From: Lachnospiraceae bacterium
Lineage (GTDB): Bacteria > Bacillota > Clostridia > Lachnospirales > Lachnospiraceae
Reading direction: 5' to 3'
Length of the DNA stretch: 50,667 nt
Assembly (NCBI GenBank): GCA_024697065.1
Contig: JAILGE010000002.1
Span: forward strand, 1-50,667
The translations under genes were made by a program, and so were the position numbers. Of the stretch, positions 24,607 through 38,072 are shown piece by piece. The notes beneath the pieces are model-generated. The model searched no databases, was not told where the DNA came from, and was given only the letters and a program-made list of their open reading frames with translations. Each line of letters begins with the position of its first letter. The first letter of the stretch is position 1.

Positions 24607-27600
24607 TTATACACCGTTATCACGGCGGTTTTTCTTATTAAGCAATGCTGATGTATCCAGTCCCTGTGATACAGGTGCCGCGCCGCCCTTTGGAGCCTTC
24701 GAGGGCTTGCGGACATTCTTTGCCGGTCTCTGCGGCATCGCTCCGGGCTGCATCTGCGGTGCTCCTCCCCGGGGCATTCCCTGAGGCATTCCGGGCTGTC
24801 TTTGTGACATCGGTCCCGGCTGCATCTGCGGTGCTGCTCCCTGTGGCATTCCCTGTGGCATTCCGGGCATTCCTGCCGGTCTCTGCGGCATCGCTCCGGG
24901 CTGCATCTGTGGTGCTCCTCCCTGAGGCATTCCCGGCATTCCTGCCGGTCTCTGCGGCATCGCTCCCGGCTGCATCTGCGGTGCTGCCCCCTGAGGCATT
25001 CCCTGAGGCATTCCCGGCATTCCTGCCGGTCTCTGCGGCATCGCTCCGGGCTGCATCTGCGGCGCAGGCACCTGAGGCATTGCCCCCTGAGGCATTCCCT
25101 GCTCTGCGAATTCCGCAGCTGCCTTCAGCGCTTTCCTCTCTTCTCTTTCCTGTCTCCTCTTTTCTCTGCGCTCCTTTGCGGCAGCTCCGTAGAGAGGCTC
25201 CCACGCGAAACGCCTTCCTGCTATATCCGAGAGGAAGAGCAGGATCGAAAGGATCAGGAAGATATCCGTCAGGTCAAAGCTTCCGACTGCCGTCACATTC
25301 AGCTTCTTCCAGATATTGTCGCCGGAAGCAAGCCATATACCGTACTGATCGATGAATGAAGAAAACTTTCTGTCATCCATATCAAATCTGAATTCGTCAC
25401 TGTACTGAACAACGGACGCTGTAGTAAACACACCCTGAACAGTGCCGTCGTCGCTCCTGCGAACATTGATATTGTACAGACCGCTTTCAATACTGTCAAA
25501 AACTGCTCTGTAGACTCCGGGCTCGGAAGCCGTGAAGTCTACCTCTCCGGTATCACCGTCCGGTGTGGTATATATCGCATTTATCTCCGTCCTGTCATCA
25601 TAATCATCCGTATGATACTCGAGGATGGTCTGCTCACCTTCGTTATTTACTCTTACGTAATCTTCTCCTATGGAAGAGCTTCCGCAGGTGTAGTCTATCA
25701 TTCTGCGCCACATTTCGGCATAGTCTCCGTCACCGGAATAACCTGCCGTCCAGCCGCCGTCCACATCAGTATTCCATGCGAGACTTCGTCCCAGACCATA
25801 CTGCCAAACCGTAAGTATGGGATCTCCTTCATTGCTCAGTATGAGCTGCTGGGCTCCGTCTTTGGGTGATGCGGCCACATATCCCAGTATATCCGTCCAT
25901 CCATCGGCAAAGAGCCCCTGCGTGATCTCATGCCCCGCTACCGAAAGCTGATACTGCCCATTCTTCAGATATGTATTTCCTCCGAGGAATACTTCCTGCG
26001 CAAAGATCCTGGGAAGATCCGTGGTTCCGTCCGCGTAGTAATATCTTCCGTTGCAGTCCTTTGCCAGCTGGCTCATGAGCTGTGTATCGGAATACTGACC
26101 TACAGCAACGGTGGAAAGCGTTATACCGTCTGAGTTGATCTTATTTGTTACCGAGCTGAAATTGGTGGTCTCACCCATTCCGTCTGTCAAAAGGATTATG
26201 TGCTTGATCTCAGCATTACTTGTCATCAATGATTTGCGCGCTTCCTCAAGTGCCGGCATGATGACCGTTCCGCCACCGCTTCCGATACTGTCTATATCAT
26301 ATTTAACAGAATCCTTGTCACCCACAACCGACAGAGGATGATACCAGTACCAGGTATCGTCAAACCCGAGTACACCGACCTGATCCTCTTCGCGCATATT
26401 GTCCACAGCACGCTTTGCAGACTCTATGGCAAGATCCAGTATCGTAAACCCGTTACCTGCATAATCATCCATGGAACCCGAATGGTCTATTACCATTACG
26501 ATGGCCGTGGTAGGAATCTCAGTCATACTTCGAAGCTCCATATTAACCGGAAGGATCTTCTCAATCGGTGTATCGTTATATCCTCCCAGCATGAAGCTGT
26601 CTTCGCCGCCGGTCATTATAAGACCGCGTCCATAGTCTTTTACAAAAGTGTCCAGAAGCTCAACGAATTCTTCCGGAAGCTCCGAATAATATGCATTCTC
26701 AAGGATCACAACTCTGTACTCCAGAAGTTCGTTCAAAGTCGACGGAGCGGAGGAAGCTTTCATTATATCCGCATTTGCATTGATGGAACCGAGAAGATTT
26801 TCAAACGGAAGCCCGTTCTCACCCGCGCCCTTTATAACCAGTATCTTCGGCGCATCCGCAACCTCCGAGTAAGCATTGAACACGTTATTTTCAGCGCAGG
26901 TATCACCCTCTGCCGTCACTTCCACATGGAAGCTTTCAAGTGAATTGCCCTGAACCACTTCTTCGAAAACAAACTCATTATGTCCCTTCTGAAGATGAAC
27001 TTTCTCTTCGTTAAGGACCACATCTCCGGACATGATGGAAACTACTGCATCTGTCTCGTAATTGCTCTCCAATGCAACCGTCATATAGAAACTGTCACCC
27101 GGATGAAGCACATTGGGAACATCAACATTCTCTACGTAACAGTCATCTCCCGTCTCGGAAGGGATCATGTAAGCTTCAAGACTTATCCTGCCGGAGCTTA
27201 TCATGGAAGCGGTGTTGGTAATGTCGCCAGCAGTCTCTCTTCCGTCGGTAAGCACCACTATCCTTCCCACCGAATCAGCGGGTATCATTGACACGGCGCG
27301 CTGCATTGCTTTTTCAAAGTTGGTGGCAGCAGGATCCGCATCGGAATCTATGCCCATAAACATATCCCTGTCTGTGACGAACTGGTCAACAACAGCATCA
27401 CGTCCGAAGCCCACGATACCGTATCGGTTATTCTTAGGCATATCTTTCAGCGCATCGTCGATATAATCTTCGAAGAGTTCAAGATTCTTTTCATCGCTGA
27501 CGGACATATCAACCAGGAAGATAGTCGTTGTATCCTTGGCTTTCTTTGGAATGCGGATACCGAGCAATGCCAGTACCACGAGTGCAAGAAGCACTGCTCT

Positions 27601-29436
27601 TACAACGAGATAGAACTTCTTCCTGTAGTTCATTTTCCTTACGTAGAGAAGCCACTCAAGCACAAGGAGTATGACAGCTGCGATAAGAAGGATATTGCGG
27701 AGATTCTTCTTTACTCTCGCACCTTCCTGTGCATTGGAATATTTAAGATCCTCCGAAACGACTCTTCCGTCACGTCCGTAAGCCGGTGCCGTCACGGTAT
27801 AGTATTCCGTCCTTGCTCCCGCAGAGATGTAAAACAGTCCCGCTTTGTTCAGTCTGCCTTCCGGAAGACCTGTTATGGGAATGTATTCGGGGAGCGGGTT
27901 CATGATAATGCTGTTGCCTGTCTCATATGAATTCTGCGCCAGCATTCCAAGGTCTGATAAGAAGGAAACGGACTCCGCCATAAATACGGGGAACTCTGCC
28001 TGAAGTGCAAAGTCACTTTCCCTGATATCGAATCCGATTACTATCTGCTTATGGCCGCCGTTGATGCCGTAGTAACCGACGCACTTTCCGTCCGTTTCCA
28101 TGAAAGACTGTGCCCACTCAGGTACGTCATAGTAATTGACCGTGTTTGCACCTATGGTGAACTCATCCAGTCCCTCCGTAAGGTCGCACTTCTTAACGGT
28201 TATATTTCTGTTGGAAAGAGTCCCCTTCTCACCTCCCGCCAGGAACTCCATGGAGTTTACATCGGACTGGTCTCTTCCAAAGCCCGCATCGTAAATGACC
28301 ATTGTACAGTCCTGGGCAGCAAGAGCATTATCGGAAACGGCACGTACAAGATCGCTTCCCGTAGCTGCATAGAAGGCTCTCTCTACAAAAGTATTACCGT
28401 TACTGATGAGCATTCCTGTAGTATCGCCCGCTTCCGATGTAAGAGCATAGGCTATGTTATCAGCTGAAAGGCTGTCAAAATCATGGCTGATCTTTACATT
28501 GCTTTTTTTCTTTTCTTCCTCACCTTCGGCAGGTGTCTCTTTGGCGGGTTCTCCGTCAAAGCGGATCGAAGTGAGCTCTGCGCGGTAATATCTGGATTCT
28601 GAAGTGATTCCCGTGAAAAGAACGGATGCGCTCTTTCCCGCCTCCGCACTTGCGGATCTCACATCTATGATATTTCCCTGATCGTCATATAATGATATAT
28701 CCATGGATGCGCCCAGGTCGCTGTAATCGGTATAGCGGACAGACACTTCCGTTGCTCCGTCCTTGTCGGCCGCATAGATATAATCAATGGAAACATCGGA
28801 AACAGCTTCGCCCACATCTATGATGTCAGCCTTCAGATTATCGGCATATGCAGAAAGCTCCGCACATCCAAAGCCATCCGTAAGGATGATGATGTGATCG
28901 TATTCAAGAGAAGAGAGTATACTGTAGAGATCTCCGGCATTGCCCTCCGTATCCTCAGCTTCGATAGAGGATATGGCACTGCGGAGCATCTTTCTGTCCG
29001 AAGAAGATGTGACAAGTATCTTTGCGGTATCAGATGCCGAAATAACCGTCATCTCGCCAAACTCGGATGAGATGTATTCAAGAGCCTCATCCTTGGCTTC
29101 ATCCAGCCTGGTCTTCCCCTGCTTGATCTGGTGCTGCATGCTGAAAGAATTATCGATGACGATAACGGTACTTCCACCCGTAAATGATTTTGTCATGATA
29201 AAAGGAGCCATCAGCGCAAGTATGAGCAGCAGCATGATGACCATCTGCAGATACATGAGAAGCTCATGGATAAATTTTTCGAAGAAGGTTTTGGACTGTA
29301 CGTTCTTGAATATATGCTTCCAGAGCAGATTGGATGAGATCTCAAGATCCGTTCCCCTGGGCTTGAGCAGATACAGTATGATGATGACCGGTATGGCGAG
29401 CGCAAACGCAAGCGGCCAGAGACTGGCGAATGACAT
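24607..29436 (-). CDS. Giant fused BatA / VWA / GATase1-like / VWA membrane protein
   Basis: The 1609-residue protein reads like two normally separate genes joined in frame. Part 1 (1-600): BatA N-terminus with two TM helices (7-24, 59-80), a VWA-like domain from about 90 with MIDAS-type DNSFS, a beta-rich stretch, and a TM helix at about 575-595. Part 2: another TM helix (about 605-628), a second VWA (about 636-800) with DMSVS, a GATase1-like domain (about 858-965, no nucleophile Cys seen), a third VWA (from about 975) with a perfect DHSGS MIDAS, and a last TM helix (about 1387-1410). The basic cytoplasmic tail ends in 130 residues of Met/Pro/Gln/Gly repeats. DUF58 lies upstream, as in MoxR/Bat loci, but no MoxR ATPase is in the window. 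Ribosome site AGGAG. Biochemical role unknown. Confidence 0.88.
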   Translation of the reverse strand: MSFASLWPLAFALAIPVIIILYLLKPRGTDLEISSNLLWKHIFKNVQSKTFFEKFIHELLMYLQMVIMLLLILALMAPFIMTKSFTGGSTVIVIDNSFSMQHQIKQGKTRLDEAKDEALEYISSEFGEMTVISASDTAKILVTSSSDRKMLRSAISSIEAEDTEGNAGDLYSILSSLEYDHIIILTDGFGCAELSAYADNLKADIIDVGEAVSDVSIDYIYAADKDGATEVSVRYTDYSDLGASMDISLYDDQGNIIDVRSASAEAGKSASVLFTGITSESRYYRAELTSIRFDGEPAKETPAEGEEEKKKSNVKISHDFDSLSADNIAYALTSEAGDTTGMLISNGNTFVERAFYAATGSDLVRAVSDNALAAQDCTMVIYDAGFGRDQSDVNSMEFLAGGEKGTLSNRNITVKKCDLTEGLDEFTIGANTVNYYDVPEWAQSFMETDGKCVGYYGINGGHKQIVIGFDIRESDFALQAEFPVFMAESVSFLSDLGMLAQNSYETGNSIIMNPLPEYIPITGLPEGRLNKAGLFYISAGARTEYYTVTAPAYGRDGRVVSEDLKYSNAQEGARVKKNLRNILLIAAVILLVLEWLLYVRKMNYRKKFYLVVRAVLLALVVLALLGIRIPKKAKDTTTIFLVDMSVSDEKNLELFEDYIDDALKDMPKNNRYGIVGFGRDAVVDQFVTDRDMFMGIDSDADPAATNFEKAMQRAVSMIPADSVGRIVVLTDGRETAGDITNTASMISSGRISLEAYMIPSETGDDCYVENVDVPNVLHPGDSFYMTVALESNYETDAVVSIMSGDVVLNEEKVHLQKGHNEFVFEEVVQGNSLESFHVEVTAEGDTCAENNVFNAYSEVADAPKILVIKGAGENGLPFENLLGSINANADIMKASSAPSTLNELLEYRVVILENAYYSELPEEFVELLDTFVKDYGRGLIMTGGEDSFMLGGYNDTPIEKILPVNMELRSMTEIPTTAIVMVIDHSGSMDDYAGNGFTILDLAIESAKRAVDNMREEDQVGVLGFDDTWYWYHPLSVVGDKDSVKYDIDSIGSGGGTVIMPALEEARKSLMTSNAEIKHIILLTDGMGETTNFSSVTNKINSDGITLSTVAVGQYSDTQLMSQLAKDCNGRYYYADGTTDLPRIFAQEVFLGGNTYLKNGQYQLSVAGHEITQGLFADGWTDILGYVAASPKDGAQQLILSNEGDPILTVWQYGLGRSLAWNTDVDGGWTAGYSGDGDYAEMWRRMIDYTCGSSSIGEDYVRVNNEGEQTILEYHTDDYDDRTEINAIYTTPDGDTGEVDFTASEPGVYRAVFDSIESGLYNINVRRSDDGTVQGVFTTASVVQYSDEFRFDMDDRKFSSFIDQYGIWLASGDNIWKKLNVTAVGSFDLTDIFLILSILLFLSDIAGRRFAWEPLYGAAAKERREKRRQEREERKALKAAAEFAEQGMPQGAMPQVPAPQMQPGAMPQRPAGMPGMPQGMPQGAAPQMQPGAMPQRPAGMPGMPQGGAPQMQPGAMPQRPAGMPGMPQGMPQGAAPQMQPGPMSQRQPGMPQGMPRGGAPQMQPGAMPQRPAKNVRKPSKAPKGGAAPVSQGLDTSALLNKKNRRDNGV
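24713..25075. repeat. Imperfect tandem repeat tract coding the M/P/Q/G tail
   Basis: At least five copies of a roughly 45-base block (plus-strand core CCGGTCTCTGCGGCATCGCT) start near 24713, 24797, 24868, 24937 and 25018, at intervals of 84, 71, 69 and 81 bases. The copies at 24868, 24937 and 25018 are nearly identical. The tract lies inside the BatA-like gene and encodes units such as QMQPGAMPQRPAGMPGMPQ. Slippage or recombination here would change tail length in frame. Confidence 0.85.
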
Positions 29437-33163: not shown

Positions 33164-33192
33164 TTGAAAAAGGTCTCTCCAAATGCTACAAT
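33164..33192 (+). promoter_or_regulatory. Promoter of the DHH-TIR operon
   Basis: TTGAAA (33164-33169), exactly 17 bases, then TACAAT (33187-33192) preceded by TGC, an extended -10. Transcription would start near 33199, 44 bases before the DHH ATG. Confidence 0.7.
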
Positions 33193-33242
33193 TTCAAGGA
33201 TTGAAGCCATTTTCAACAGACACATCAGAAAGGATATCATTT

Positions 33243-34772
33243 ATGAAACTATCCGATCTTCTAAGTTATGACTCCATCGTTATCCAGGGCCATGATAACC
33301 CTGACGCAGACGCTATAGCAGCGGGCTTTGGCATATACAGCTACCTGCGATCCAAGGGTAAGGAGCCACGCTTCATCTATTCCGGAGATTTTAAGATCAC
33401 CAAATCCAATCTCCGCTATCTGATATCAACACTGGATATCCCCATAGAATATGTCGAAGGGCTGGATACTGTTCCGGATCTGCTCATCACCGAGGACTGC
33501 ATGTACGGAGAAGGCAATGTAAGGAAGTTCGAAGCAAAGACCGTTGCCGTGATAGATCACCACAGACTCTCGGGAGCACTGCCGGAGCTTTCGGATGTCA
33601 GGCAGGGAATGGGAAGCTGTTCCACCATCGTATGGGATCTGCTGAGAGCAGAAGGCTTTGTCCCCGACGAAGCACTCTCCACTGCACTGTACTACGGACT
33701 TTATACGGATACGGGAGAATTGGCCGAAGTATCCCACCCTCTGGACAGGGATATGTTAGACGCTCTTGAATTCGACGCATCGCTCATCAGACGGCTGCGT
33801 CATATGAATATATCTCTCGGAGAGGCTAAGATCGCAGGCATAGCAATGCTCGGAGTGGAATATCATGAAGCACACAGATATGCGCTGCTTGAGAGTGAGC
33901 CCTGTGACCCCAATATCCTGGGACTTATAAGCGACTTTTACCTTGCAGTGGATTCTGTAGATGTATGTGTTGTTTTCTCTGTCCTTAAGGACGGAATAAA
34001 ATTCTCGGTCCGCAGCTGCGTCCCGGAGGTTTGCGCCAACGAGCTTGCCGCAGAGATCTCCAAAGGCATAGGAACCGGCGGAGGACATGTCGACAAAGCC
34101 GGCGGATTTCTTTCGGCGAAGCTGATCTCCTCTTTTTCGGAAAGATATGCGCAGGCCGATTCTTCATCAAAAAAATATGTTGTGACAACTCTTATCCGGG
34201 AAAGACTCCATCACTCTCTGTGTGATACGGAGATCATCCGTTCCGGCAGCTATACGGCAGACCCTACAAAGATGAAAAAATACGTGAAGCTCCCGGTAAA
34301 ACAGGGATGTGCATTCCCTGCGGAATTCCTTCCCTGCGGTACCCCGATCTTAGTCAGATCATTAGAGGGTGATACAAATATCGAAGTAGCTGAAGATACG
34401 GTCATCATGATCGGTGTCAGAGGCGAAGTGTATGCATCAAGACAGTCGGTATTCGATAAGAACTACTGTCTGCTGGATGAGCCCTACGATATGAACCTGG
34501 AATACTTCCCCACCATAAAGAACAGCGTCACGGGAGAGACCATCCCTCTCGCCCCCTATGCAAAAACATGCAGATCAAACGGTGGAAATATAATACTGAG
34601 CGCTCCCCTTGAGCGTCCCACCAAAGTTTTTACCAAATGGAACAAGGACGAATATTTCAAGGGTGAACCGGGAGATTTTCTCTCATGCAAGGAAGCTGAT
34701 CCCGCAGATGTATATATAATCGCAAAAGATATATTTGCAGAGACGTATAAAGAAATCCAGGAGGTTACGTAA
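33243..34772 (+). CDS. DHH-family phosphoesterase with C-terminal PGDYG-like domain
   Basis: The 509-residue protein starts MKLSDLLSYD (ATG with AAGGA eight bases upstream; an earlier in-frame ATG at 33183 overlaps the promoter). The DHH domain shows GHDNPDADAIA (16-26, metal site), VIDHHRLSG (D105-H106-H107) and YTDTGEL; the DHHA1 domain ends in GTGGGHVDKAGGF (about 283-296). DHH-DHHA1 proteins of this size hydrolyse nanoRNA, pAp or linear/cyclic dinucleotides. Residues about 335-509 are extra: two units, each ending in a pattern of the type (Y/I)-x-I-x-x-x-F-x-x-x-Y, the second containing GEPGDFL as in PGDYG proteins. Its stop codon overlaps the ATG of the TIR gene (TAATG), so the pair is co-translated. 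Confidence 0.85.
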   Translation: MKLSDLLSYDSIVIQGHDNPDADAIAAGFGIYSYLRSKGKEPRFIYSGDFKITKSNLRYLISTLDIPIEYVEGLDTVPDLLITEDCMYGEGNVRKFEAKTVAVIDHHRLSGALPELSDVRQGMGSCSTIVWDLLRAEGFVPDEALSTALYYGLYTDTGELAEVSHPLDRDMLDALEFDASLIRRLRHMNISLGEAKIAGIAMLGVEYHEAHRYALLESEPCDPNILGLISDFYLAVDSVDVCVVFSVLKDGIKFSVRSCVPEVCANELAAEISKGIGTGGGHVDKAGGFLSAKLISSFSERYAQADSSSKKYVVTTLIRERLHHSLCDTEIIRSGSYTADPTKMKKYVKLPVKQGCAFPAEFLPCGTPILVRSLEGDTNIEVAEDTVIMIGVRGEVYASRQSVFDKNYCLLDEPYDMNLEYFPTIKNSVTGETIPLAPYAKTCRSNGGNIILSAPLERPTKVFTKWNKDEYFKGEPGDFLSCKEADPADVYIIAKDIFAETYKEIQEVT

Positions 34773-37700
34773 TGCCTATAGCAGACAGATATAATGCCTT
34801 CATTTCCTACAGGCATTCCAAGAAAGATAATGTGATCGCAAAGGAGATACAGTCAGGCCTTGAACATTTCAGGATTCCCTCGAAGATTGCGAAGAAGACC
34901 GGTTTCAAGCGATTCGACAGAATCTTCCGTGACAAAGAAGAGCTTCCCATCACCAGCGATCTGGATAATGAGATCGAAGCCGCACTTAAAGTGTCTGACT
35001 ATCTCATCGTCATCTGTTCCACTCACACCGGTGAGTCGGTATGGGTACAGCGGGAGATAGAGACATTCCTAAAATATCACAGCAAAAAAAATATATTCAC
35101 CGTACTCGTCGACGGAGAACCCGACGAAGTCATACCGGATATACTTTTGCATGATACCGTTACCAGAAAACTGGCAGACGGTACTACCATCACTCAGGAA
35201 GAGATCATAGAACCTCTCTCCTGCGACTACCGTATGCCCCTCAGAGCCGCCAGGAATGAAGAGCTTCCGAGACTTGCAGCATCAATGTTAGGCTGCGCTT
35301 ATGACGAGCTCATGAGAAGACGCAGGCAGTACAGGATACACAGGGCTATCGCTGCCATCTCGGCAACAGCATGCATCCTCGGAGTCTTCATCGCATATCT
35401 CTTATGGAGCATGGCAAATATCAGGAAGAATTACGATCAGGCTCTCTTAAACCAGTCACGCTATTACGCAACGGAATCCGGATACTATCTGGAAAAAGGT
35501 GACCGCGTTACCGCAGTCTGGCTTGCTCTCGCGGGACTTCCCACCAAAGGAAACGAGAGACCCTTAAGCACCGAGACCGTCAATGCCTTGACGGATGCTC
35601 TCGGCACTTACATCGCACCGGGTTCCGCCTCCTTTACACCCGTATGGTCATATGATTCTCATTCACCTTCGGTAAAATTCAGCGCTGACAATGAAAATAA
35701 GATCCTGGCATCACTGGATAAAAGAAATATCTTATCAGTCTGGGATCTGAAAACACATGAACTCAGGACGACTCTTGTGTCTTCCGGAGGTGTTCTCGAT
35801 TTTGCTTTCGACAGCGATAACAGGCTGGTGCTCATCTGCGAGGATGCTCTTAAAGCATACGACGTTGACAGTCTCGATCTTCTCTGGGAAACGAAATACG
35901 ATAACCGGTATATCTCACATTCCTCAACGAAATTATCCGTTTCAAAAACAAAGCCTTTGGCCGCCTACAACGGAGGCGAAAAAATCGTGCTGTTAAATAC
36001 CGAGACCGGAAAACTGCAGCGCGAGTTGACCATGGATGATTTCTCAGGGACGGTATCTTCCGGCAACATCATTTCAACGCTGATCGTTAACGGTCTGAGG
36101 ATCAGTCCCGACGGTACACTTTTGGAGATCTCAGCCGAAAACTACAGCCCCAACGCATCAGACGAGTACAACGGACTATATCTGTATAACGTAGAAAAAG
36201 ATGATCTTTCCCGGATATACGAAGGAGATTTTTACTATCTGACAGGTAATTTTACTGCGGATAACAAAGTGATAATCGCTACCAATGACGATGTGGCCAA
36301 TTCCAGCTTGGATTTCGCCGGCAGAGGAATACTGAACACCACCGGGATCCATGTATATCTTTTCTCATCTTCGGGAGAAGAACTCTGGGAATGCCCGCTC
36401 ACCTATGTAAGCACATCTTATCAAACCAGAGTCTTTGAATTTAATTTTACGGACGAAAACGGAAGAACCGTTCCCGGAATAGTAGCTTTTTATTCAGACC
36501 AGTGCGCCATGATCGATGCAACAGACGGAAGTGTGATTAAAATATTCGATCTTACTTCTTCTTTTATCTCGGCATACAGCACGGGAACCTATCTCCGTCC
36601 GATCACACGCAACGGCAGTTATCTTACAATACCGACAGCATTAGACGATTCATCCGTGTTGCTCGATCAGTATTTCACTGATGAGGTGGAATCATCGTGT
36701 CTCGTGATAAACGATAACGAAAGTCTCTCCTACATCATACAGTCAGACGACTCAACATCACTTATCGAATACAACAATGACTTCTGCGGAAACTCTTTTG
36801 TAAAATATGATGATATGCCGGATGACGCACTGTTAAATGATAGTCTGATCTCGGGAAGCACATTCTTCGGATTATATGATGATATGACCCTGCGTGCCTT
36901 TGACCTCGACTCAGAAAAAGAATTATGGAGCAAAGACATCCCGGCAGATTACTATACCGATATCCACTTATTAGGGTTGTCTTCAGACGGCCAGAGCCTT
37001 TTCTATTCCAACTGCCCTCTCAACAGAGAGGACGACAAAGGTGTATTTCAGGTTGCTATGTCTGACGGTGATACCAAGAAGCTTGATATCGAATGGGGCC
37101 GTTACACCGAACCGGAATTCAGGTTATCCAATGACATCCTGTACTACAACATGGTAGACAACTCAGACTATCCGAATGTACGTTATTATTCCGTTGCCTA
37201 TGATATCGCCGGCAAAAAGACCACAAAAACCCGTGTGTTCAAAGACGGATCCGGGACACTTACCGAAGACGACACTCTCTACCCTTCTCCCGACGGAAAA
37301 TACATGATAAATATAAGCACGGATCGAAATAATACCGGTATACGTATTCTGATAGATCTCGAAAGCAAAGAAACCTATGGTAATAAAATGTCATCCGGTG
37401 ATGATGTGATCGCATGGAAAGAAGATTCCTCAGGCTTTGCCCAGGAATACGACAACACCATCAGGCTCTTCGATACTCTCGGCGAAGAAACAGCAACATT
37501 CAATACCGAAGGCAAAAATGCTCTCCACATGGAATGGCACAACGGTATCCTGGATGTCCTCTTCGACGGCGGCGATCTCGTTCGTTACAACGCTGATGGC
37601 ACCATCATCGAAAAGATCAACCTGAACTCGGTCGGAAACTATTATGATCACGACTGGGTATTCGATTATTCAGACAAATACCTTATCATAACAAACAGTT

Positions 37701-37978
37701 TCCATTTCTTCCTGATATCGCAGGAGGACTTCCGACTCATCGGATCGGGCACCGGGCTCCTTGGCTTCTATAACGAAAAAGAAAGACTGATCTGCCGCTC
37801 CTTCAACAACACCGGGGGCAGCGGTATCGGATACTTCCCCATCAGGACCCTGGATGAACTGATACAGGATGCCAGAGATTATCTCAAAGATGCCAAAATG
37901 AGCGATGAATTCAAGGCCCAGTACGGTATCACCATGTCAGACGAGATCGGAGACGTGGCGGTGGATACGGGAGAGTAA
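34772..37978 (+). CDS. TIR-domain transmembrane protein with extracytoplasmic beta-propeller
   Basis: The 1068 residues start with a TIR domain (about 5-165): YNAFISYRHSKKD is the first strand, RDKEELPITSDL the BB-loop region, and W91-V-Q-R-E95 the WxxxE segment that carries the catalytic glutamate in NAD-cleaving TIRs. A strongly basic stretch (MRRRRQYRIHR, 181-191) precedes a single TM helix (191-213), so the positive-inside rule puts TIR in the cytoplasm and the rest outside. Next come a helical spacer with GDRVTAVWLALAGLP (about 243-257) and about 790 residues of WD40/PQQ-like beta repeats (NILSVWDLKTHEL and similar blades). Ribosome site AGGAGG; coupled to the DHH gene. NADase activity is inferred from the TIR motif. 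Confidence 0.88.
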   Translation: MPIADRYNAFISYRHSKKDNVIAKEIQSGLEHFRIPSKIAKKTGFKRFDRIFRDKEELPITSDLDNEIEAALKVSDYLIVICSTHTGESVWVQREIETFLKYHSKKNIFTVLVDGEPDEVIPDILLHDTVTRKLADGTTITQEEIIEPLSCDYRMPLRAARNEELPRLAASMLGCAYDELMRRRRQYRIHRAIAAISATACILGVFIAYLLWSMANIRKNYDQALLNQSRYYATESGYYLEKGDRVTAVWLALAGLPTKGNERPLSTETVNALTDALGTYIAPGSASFTPVWSYDSHSPSVKFSADNENKILASLDKRNILSVWDLKTHELRTTLVSSGGVLDFAFDSDNRLVLICEDALKAYDVDSLDLLWETKYDNRYISHSSTKLSVSKTKPLAAYNGGEKIVLLNTETGKLQRELTMDDFSGTVSSGNIISTLIVNGLRISPDGTLLEISAENYSPNASDEYNGLYLYNVEKDDLSRIYEGDFYYLTGNFTADNKVIIATNDDVANSSLDFAGRGILNTTGIHVYLFSSSGEELWECPLTYVSTSYQTRVFEFNFTDENGRTVPGIVAFYSDQCAMIDATDGSVIKIFDLTSSFISAYSTGTYLRPITRNGSYLTIPTALDDSSVLLDQYFTDEVESSCLVINDNESLSYIIQSDDSTSLIEYNNDFCGNSFVKYDDMPDDALLNDSLISGSTFFGLYDDMTLRAFDLDSEKELWSKDIPADYYTDIHLLGLSSDGQSLFYSNCPLNREDDKGVFQVAMSDGDTKKLDIEWGRYTEPEFRLSNDILYYNMVDNSDYPNVRYYSVAYDIAGKKTTKTRVFKDGSGTLTEDDTLYPSPDGKYMINISTDRNNTGIRILIDLESKETYGNKMSSGDDVIAWKEDSSGFAQEYDNTIRLFDTLGEETATFNTEGKNALHMEWHNGILDVLFDGGDLVRYNADGTIIEKINLNSVGNYYDHDWVFDYSDKYLIITNSFHFFLISQEDFRLIGSGTGLLGFYNEKERLICRSFNNTGGSGIGYFPIRTLDELIQDARDYLKDAKMSDEFKAQYGITMSDEIGDVAVDTGE

Positions 37979-38006
37979 GGTGCCCGGTATCATGGACATG
38001 CAACAT

Positions 38007-38043
38007 AAAAAACGCGACCCCCGAGAAGGGATCGCGTTTTTTT
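38007..38043. terminator. Bidirectional intrinsic terminator
   Basis: The stem AAAAAACGCGA... / ...TCGCGTTTTTTT (38007-38043), reinforced by CCC/GGG, has T-runs on both strands. It closes the DHH-TIR operon and also the convergent hydratase gene. Confidence 0.92.
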
Positions 38044-38072
38044 GTAATCTTTATATTCAAATATTATTCAGA

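Follow-up and report, generated by a model that had tools for sequence, protein, structure and literature searches.

Gene pair and expression signals

We analysed a 50,667-nucleotide stretch of DNA from a Lachnospiraceae bacterium (GenBank assembly GCA_024697065.1, contig JAILGE010000002.1, forward strand), called the window below, and focus on two overlapping genes in it. Both open reading frames (ORFs) were confirmed and lie on the same strand (+). The first encodes a DHH-DHHA1 phosphoesterase and the second a protein composed of a TIR domain, a transmembrane helix and a double beta-propeller. The two genes recur side by side across the family, and the pair resembles a signalling or defence system, apparently undescribed, of gut and rumen bacteria. 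The features of the locus are as follows, with the basis of each assignment in brackets.

33164..33192, plus strand: promoter-like site TTGAAA-17-TACAAT with a TG before the -10 (scan; hexamers and TG kept in the relative L077)
33243..34772, plus strand: DHH-DHHA1 phosphoesterase with an extra C-terminal module, 509 aa (ORF, Pfam, alignments, fold)
33276..33698, plus strand: DHH catalytic domain, residues 12-152 (Pfam DHH, alignment)
33903..34136, plus strand: DHHA1 domain, residues 221-298 (Pfam, alignment)
34197..34769, plus strand: C-terminal module, residues 319-509, with a repeated GD/GE-Y...F..TY motif (alignment, searches)
34770..34774, plus strand: TAATG stop/start overlap of the DHH and TIR genes (sequence)
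34772..37978, plus strand: TIR - transmembrane - double beta-propeller protein, 1068 aa (ORF, Pfam, AlphaFold, hydrophobicity)
34787..35296, plus strand: TIR domain, about residues 6-175, with the codon of E95 at 35054-35056 (Pfam, alignment, structure profile)
35348..35404, plus strand: single transmembrane helix, residues 193-211 (hydrophobicity)
35639..37840, plus strand: beta-propeller region, residues 290-1023, fast evolving and predicted extracytoplasmic (AlphaFold, Foldseek, divergence)
38003..38045, no strand: bidirectional intrinsic terminator (folding; minus-strand match in the scan)

An earlier note on this DNA, made from the sequence alone, had described a good promoter, a TAATG overlap and a bidirectional terminator. 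The overlap is present at 34770-34774, with an AGGAGG ribosome site ahead of the TIR gene start, and the terminator is also recovered, with a folding energy of -20.2 kcal/mol (z -6.8; none of 200 shuffles was equally good) and a minus-strand match in the scan. For the promoter the picture is mixed. The site exists, but the scan gave 9 promoter-like sites where 8.8 were expected, so that the match by itself carries no weight; both hexamers and the TG are retained in L077, the closest relative, despite a synonymous divergence (dS) of 1.21 in the DHH gene. The ATG at 33243 and its AGAAAGGATAT ribosome site are also kept in this 87%-identical relative. The DHH protein likely starts at this ATG and not at 33183, since the latter falls within the promoter site.

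Conservation of the pair

We searched 397 genomes of the family with the full TIR protein at an E-value of 1e-5. At most two candidates were scored per genome, so the counts of TIR-negative genomes are upper bounds. A TIR match was obtained in 58 genomes, and a DHH match of some kind in 267, the long form being present in 61 by hand count. Seven genomes were left out of the family count, G108, G128, G206 and G232 for a short DHH protein without the module and G016, G114 and G369 for a match outside the TIR domain, while G377 was included among the long-DHH genomes on the basis of a contig-end fragment.

Both genes occur in 35 of the 397 genomes, the DHH gene alone in 26, the TIR gene alone in 20 and neither in 316 (p 7e-20). 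Within the genus the numbers are 25, 2, 2 and 6 (p 4e-4); kinship is ignored in both p values. The genes are adjacent or at most one ORF apart in 30 of the 35 two-gene genomes (hand count). These 30 include a DHH gene that runs off its contig (G363), the contig-end fragment of G377, a short locus (G089), an interrupted TIR gene (G022) and two cases with one intervening ORF (G049, G274).

Among 80 named loci of the DHH family, 48 carry the same TIR family alongside: 22 with the DHH gene upstream of the TIR gene on the same strand, 11 in the reverse order and 15 convergent. The other 32 have no such neighbour, although nine of them have less than 1.5 kb of sequence on one side. A tree of 137 DHH proteins was built with FastTree only; 39 of its inner branches are weak and one long-branch join carries a warning. 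On it, the TIR-linked proteins switched gene order or orientation no fewer than nine times, and linkage itself changed 28 times. We rejected a conserved neighbourhood as the cause of the adjacency: the gene upstream of the pair in the window (pyrK by reading) was found in 34 genomes of the genus, and only 2 of the 30 fetched loci carry the DHH gene, one of them being the window's. The earlier note had proposed to look for co-occurrence across Lachnospiraceae and had named a lack of conserved adjacency as grounds for giving up its reading; the two genes are indeed neighbours there. The pairing is well supported, though neither gene is obligate, because 26 genomes have only the DHH gene and 20 only the TIR gene.

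At eight further loci the long DHH gene has a different TIR-transmembrane protein, adjoining it in seven and near it in one. A TIR-transmembrane-DUF6273 protein lies directly upstream in L328, L273, L387, L388 and L389. The TIR protein of L386 has three hydrophobic segments and its gene overlaps the DHH gene, a TIR-transmembrane-NPCBM gene is convergent with it in L297, and in L326 a TIR-transmembrane-Sel1 gene is found two genes upstream, together with a kinase and an FGE-sulfatase-type protein. L386 to L389 are loci of the family sample, from the 26 genomes there that have the DHH gene alone. The TIR glutamate is kept in all eleven aligned TIR domains, that is, ten others and the window's. 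The gene row of L326, whose long DHH protein comes from another family of the phylum, also holds a PP2C-like fragment, by reading only. A TIR-MORN gene (L216:872-3175), divergent and two genes from a long DHH gene, was excluded from the partner count.

The DHH protein

Pfam matches the DHH domain at 8e-14 and DHHA1 weakly, at 1e-4 and 23.2 bits, under its cut-off of 25.9. In the alignment of the 58-member family both domains are present in all members, and no further Pfam family is found at an E-value of 0.001. The metal-site residues H17, D21, D23, D85, D105, H106, H107 and D156 are invariant in 58 of 58 sequences, as are G279-G281 of DHHA1, and H282 is kept in at least 90%. The nearest folds are TmPDE, Rv2837c, nanoRNase and GdpP, several of these structures having been solved with pApA, AMP or GMP. 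The features of a DHH-DHHA1 phosphodiesterase (DHH motifs, DHHA1, fold) are present. Such enzymes cleave phosphodiesters in small nucleotides.

The C-terminal module of about 190 aa gives a weak PGDYG match in relatives and no match among solved structures by sequence search. Pfam finds no SLOG, SAVED or STING nucleotide-sensing domain in the protein. The NCBIfam NrnA profile scores 18.9 bits against a cut-off of 350, which does not discriminate, since the cut-off is reached in none of the 35 genus genomes and none of 14 controls. Of the 35 genus genomes, 34 have a separate NrnA-like frame (319-357 aa), including the genome of the window; the sole genome without it is G416, which is 81% complete. 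The protein is therefore probably not the housekeeping enzyme, and we judged its identification as NrnA unlikely.

Long DHH proteins are fused to a HAD phosphatase at three places (L217:4449-6794, L280:6983-9220, L327:4201-6423), which suggests stepwise nucleotide breakdown. In L074:5370-7886 a protein kinase is fused N-terminally to the DHH protein, and a neighbouring gene resembles the kinase part.

The TIR protein

For the second protein Pfam reports TIR_2 (3e-10), ThsB_TIR (7e-9) and weak propeller models. The Foldseek list for the model contained propeller-type proteins among the 50 matches listed, and the TIR fold was hence assessed by sequence profile. This profile matches plant, bacterial and animal TIR structures, one of them deposited as the NAD(+) hydrolase AbTIR, and E95 aligns with the W..E glutamate of 7uxr (5 of 31 alignments inspected). 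The SxWxxxE motif with the catalytic-type glutamate of TIR NADases is present: neither W91 nor E95 varies among the 62 aligned TIR domains, one of which comes from the window, and S89 is found in at least 90%. The earlier note had pointed to the WxxxE glutamate at E95 and had counted the lack of an NADase pocket together with a cytoplasmic propeller as a reason to abandon its reading; the glutamate is kept in all the aligned domains. With regard to CBASS with a TIR effector (SAVED or STING on the TIR protein, a CD-NTase close by), the PADLOC scan, which covered the two proteins of the pair, matched SAVED_TIR in the TIR part only (residues 8-113). The same genome has a further TIR gene, a 492-aa frame, away from the pair (G000:C26:18749-19078).

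The AlphaFold model (mean predicted local distance difference test, pLDDT, 86.1) has a long helix at 177-241 followed by mainly blade-order strands from 289 to about 1023. Only propeller-type models were found in the protein, and no leucine-rich repeat (LRR) ectodomain. The lone hydrophobic segment, residues 193-211, is preceded by RRRRQYRIHR, in line with the polybasic stretch and single transmembrane helix described earlier. Among 105 TIR relatives, 95 have one strongly hydrophobic segment, nine have none and one has two. The segment is at the expected place in 91, with on average 6.2 lysines and arginines before it and 3.0 after it, and the count before exceeds the count after in 88 of these 91. 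From this bias we infer that the TIR domain is cytoplasmic and the propeller extracytoplasmic. The arrangement in the earlier note, TIR inside and propeller outside, is supported to this extent, as a predicted topology and not a localisation.

The propeller is less conserved than the TIR domain and the DHH protein in all 19 chosen pairs. In L226/L230, for instance, identities are 97.1% for DHH, 98.3% for TIR and 54.1% for the propeller. The divergence sets in at about residue 240-320. In the three pairs among L226, L230 and L231, which belong to one clade, dS is also about two to four times higher in the propeller than in the rest, whereas in most other pairs the two are similar; the raised dS points to ectodomain exchange in this clade. 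A recognition domain would be expected to diverge in this way.

A second TIR operon with the module

The module also occurs without the DHH domain. At all eleven fetched module-only loci (L299-L309), drawn from the best-listed matches, it follows a TIR gene and a cyclase homologue of about 500 aa; G363:C80 was excluded as a gene end at a contig edge. These proteins are 44-88% identical to the L304 cyclase over about 500 residues, and the three submitted to Pfam contain a class III cyclase domain together with a weakly matched receiver domain. In L299 the cyclase and the module share one frame. The TIR protein and the cyclase of L304 each match PADLOC singly, the cyclase as PycC (4e-22), and the TIR of L308, missed by the first profile, is 84% identical to that of L304. 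In L304 (836-6337) GAF-GGDEF and TIM-barrel genes lie upstream, and several other loci are similar by reading. This second TIR operon is conserved in genomes of the window's family. Like the extra module itself and the fast-evolving ectodomain, it is new relative to the earlier note.

The module proteins of this operon have no DHH domain, and the module is preceded by a degenerate DHHA1 without GGGH, detected in 9 of the 11 at an E-value of at most 0.0015 (11-sequence search, most alignments inspected). A relative of the DHH protein that lacks the catalytic part thus acts in another TIR system. This points to DHHA1 and the module as possible binders of a nucleotide or of the TIR domain.

Taxonomic breadth, phages and plasmids

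A search of 398 genomes of the phylum at an E-value of 1e-4 gave the module in 11, eight of them outside the window's family. In G762, G634, G492 and G724 these are full-length DHH-type proteins, and the other four are weak short matches. A phage origin, or a phage anti-TIR gene, was rejected: no relative was found in the scan of viral_contigs, and the TIR query had no match in the phage records. The DHH query had four matches there, two full-length and two short. The full-length ones, MT836060 and MT836910 (L327 and L328), are unannotated fecal contigs labelled bacteriophage that carry the long DHH gene, and they look like bacterial chromosome contigs, judged by reading, with Pfam run on two ORFs of one and on the DHH frame of the other. 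Plasmids gave 13 records with partial TIR matches and 22 with short DHH matches, none covering more than 80% of the query.

Elsewhere in the window, the 1609-aa frame at 24607-29436 carries repeats rich in proline and methionine (PQGMPQG...MQPGAMPQRPAG) close to its C terminus.

Proposed mechanism and alternatives

The anatomy of the two proteins, their active-site residues, the pairing with several TIR types and the rapid change of the ectodomain are direct observations. They are best read, in our opinion with an even chance of being right, as a TIR receptor in the membrane that makes a nucleotide, which the DHH partner then processes. According to this reading the two genes would form a conserved signalling module. 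The receptor would expose its variable propeller outside, cross the membrane with a single helix and keep the TIR enzyme on the inner side. Assembly of the TIR domains, set off by a ligand or by surface damage, would lead them to convert NAD+ to an ADP-ribose-type nucleotide. The DHH site would cut a phosphoester or pyrophosphate of that nucleotide, DHHA1 and the C-terminal module might bind the nucleotide or the TIR domain, and the DHH protein would most likely end or reset the signal and shield the cell. We prefer termination for two reasons: hydrolases found next to a signal-producing enzyme commonly have this task, and the DHH site is intact. A limiting effect of the DHH enzyme on the TIR product is plausible; beyond the topology, we infer the TIR catalysis, the nucleotide and substrate, the direction of control, the biological trigger and the role. 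The earlier note had arrived at a similar receptor-plus-DHH reading. Its neighbouring genes and its TIR glutamate are borne out, while its topology stays a prediction.

Several points speak against the membrane receptor with a DHH partner. The TIR family is missing from 26 of the 61 long-DHH genomes, and 20 genomes have it without the DHH gene. A TIR of any kind is present in 12 of the 26 DHH-only genomes and in 13 of 26 hand-picked genomes with neither gene, so that in the DHH-only genomes the position of a TIR gene is notable, not its presence. Outside the family, a TIR gene is near only one of the four full-length DHH loci (L326 in G724). Cysteine content does not tell the two membrane sides apart. 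Pairwise propeller dN/dS is at most 0.42 where computable; with values below 1 throughout, positive selection is not shown, and the change of the propeller may be relaxed or diversifying. According to a 2026 preprint (PMC13232231), hydrolysis of the 2' and 3' cyclic ADP-ribose variants (2'/3'cADPR) had been known from no protein until its phage enzyme, which is a glycosidase. To our knowledge no DHH enzyme carries out this reaction. Finally, since the second operon has the module and no DHH domain, the module, rather than hydrolysis, may be the link to TIR.

The last point leads to the alternative that survives best, although we consider it unlikely: the DHH protein would be the effector, with DHHA1 and the module sensing the TIR signal and switching hydrolysis of cyclic di-AMP (c-di-AMP), pAp or short RNA on or off. 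It is strengthened because the module occurs without DHH beside a cyclase; the module, and not the DHH site, is common to the second operon, where it stands beside or is fused to the cyclase, and the fusions of DHH proteins with a protein kinase and HAD phosphatases suggest a regulated enzyme. However, none of the sensing domains SLOG, SAVED or STING is found in the DHH protein by Pfam, the module itself being uncharacterised.

Alternatively, the TIR domain could be a non-enzymatic scaffold, as in mammalian Toll-like receptors, that recruits the DHH protein to the membrane. TIR domains may have a polymer-forming, non-catalytic role and the module could bind TIR, but E95 is invariant in the 62 domains and kept in the ten other aligned TIRs, which makes a scaffold quite improbable. 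The overlapping genes, with DHH first, and the degenerate DHHA1 and module without a catalytic domain beside another TIR would also suit a toxin-antitoxin-like pair, in which a NAD+-depleting TIR would be neutralised by the DHH protein through binding and not through catalysis; with the metal ligands invariant in 58 of 58 sequences and TIR genes without DHH common, we regard this as very improbable. Least probable of all is a metabolic nanoRNase or pAp phosphatase whose position beside TIR has no functional meaning, which would fit the best fold matches, the 32 of 80 loci without the TIR family (nine with little flanking sequence) and the missing short NrnA-like frame in G416, but not the separate frame in the other 34 genus genomes or an adjacency that has outlasted nine or more rearrangements and extends to other TIR classes.

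For the receptor with its DHH partner we also offer a wider proposal, tentatively and with considerable doubt. There might be a class of bacterial TIR receptors whose outer sensors (propeller, NPCBM, DUF6273, Sel1) are exchangeable or hypervariable and which have one dedicated DHH protein in common. This protein would be the missing host enzyme that ends nucleotide signals made by TIR, and a derivative lacking the catalytic domain might have become the sensor subunit of the TIR-cyclase operon.

Comparison with known systems

Cleavage of NAD+ by TIR domains is established, and some of these domains produce variants of cADPR. A TIR of Roseburia intestinalis makes v-cADPR-x (PMC9092222). The pairing of TIR with DHH is not described among the literature matches listed, which cover open-licence papers only, so that this absence is no proof; a paper on jumbo phages was the one match for TIR domains together with DHH phosphoesterases in bacteria; PGDYG, and the combination of TIR, WD40 and transmembrane in Butyrivibrio, gave no match in the same literature. 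By term counts, DHH is absent from the main text of PMC7159879, PMC8195603, PMC9092222 and PMC9503650.

With Thoeris the window pair shares a TIR with a ThsB-type Pfam match and the conserved glutamate, and the pairing with a second gene. The ThsB_TIR match (7e-9) is over its cut-off, yet PADLOC gives no ThsB match at an E-value of 1. The partner differs, being a DHH phosphoesterase without SLOG or SIR2 by Pfam, and the TIR is membrane-anchored and carries a propeller. A ThsA-like sensor-effector is likewise not found in the partner, which has neither SLOG nor SIR2 and matches no PADLOC family at an E-value of 1, the genes further out not having been scanned for families. The earlier statement that this is no known TIR defence type agrees with the PADLOC scan of the two proteins, and it extends to these two proteins but not to the flanking genes. 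Pycsar is touched through the second operon, whose L304 cyclase matches PycC, whereas the window pair has no cyclase.

The DHH protein resembles TmPDE, Rv2837c, NrnA, GdpP and DhhP in its fold and metal-site residues but adds the module of about 190 aa, and its NrnA profile match is weak (18.9 bits). The best-known TIR systems of bacteria are soluble and detect infection from within the cell. Both TIR-NBD-WD40 proteins (NBD, nucleotide-binding domain) and TIR proteins with transmembrane parts are mentioned for bacteria in PMC9153377. The window protein is like them in joining TIR to a propeller and a transmembrane part, but its helix lies between the TIR domain and the propeller, no NTPase domain was found and it has a dedicated DHH partner.

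In layout only, the window protein is also similar to the animal Toll-like receptors, with a single membrane pass, a predicted outer recognition domain and an inner TIR domain. Those receptors have an LRR ectodomain and the opposite domain order, whereas here the TIR domain is N-terminal and a propeller takes the place of the LRR. The C-terminal module offers a new marker in the search for TIR systems. If our reading is true, the dedicated partner hydrolase means that two genes are enough to test how the host switches off TIR-made nucleotides, and a conserved TIR protein anchored in the membrane, with an outer domain that changes quickly, would represent a Toll-like receptor layout in bacteria.

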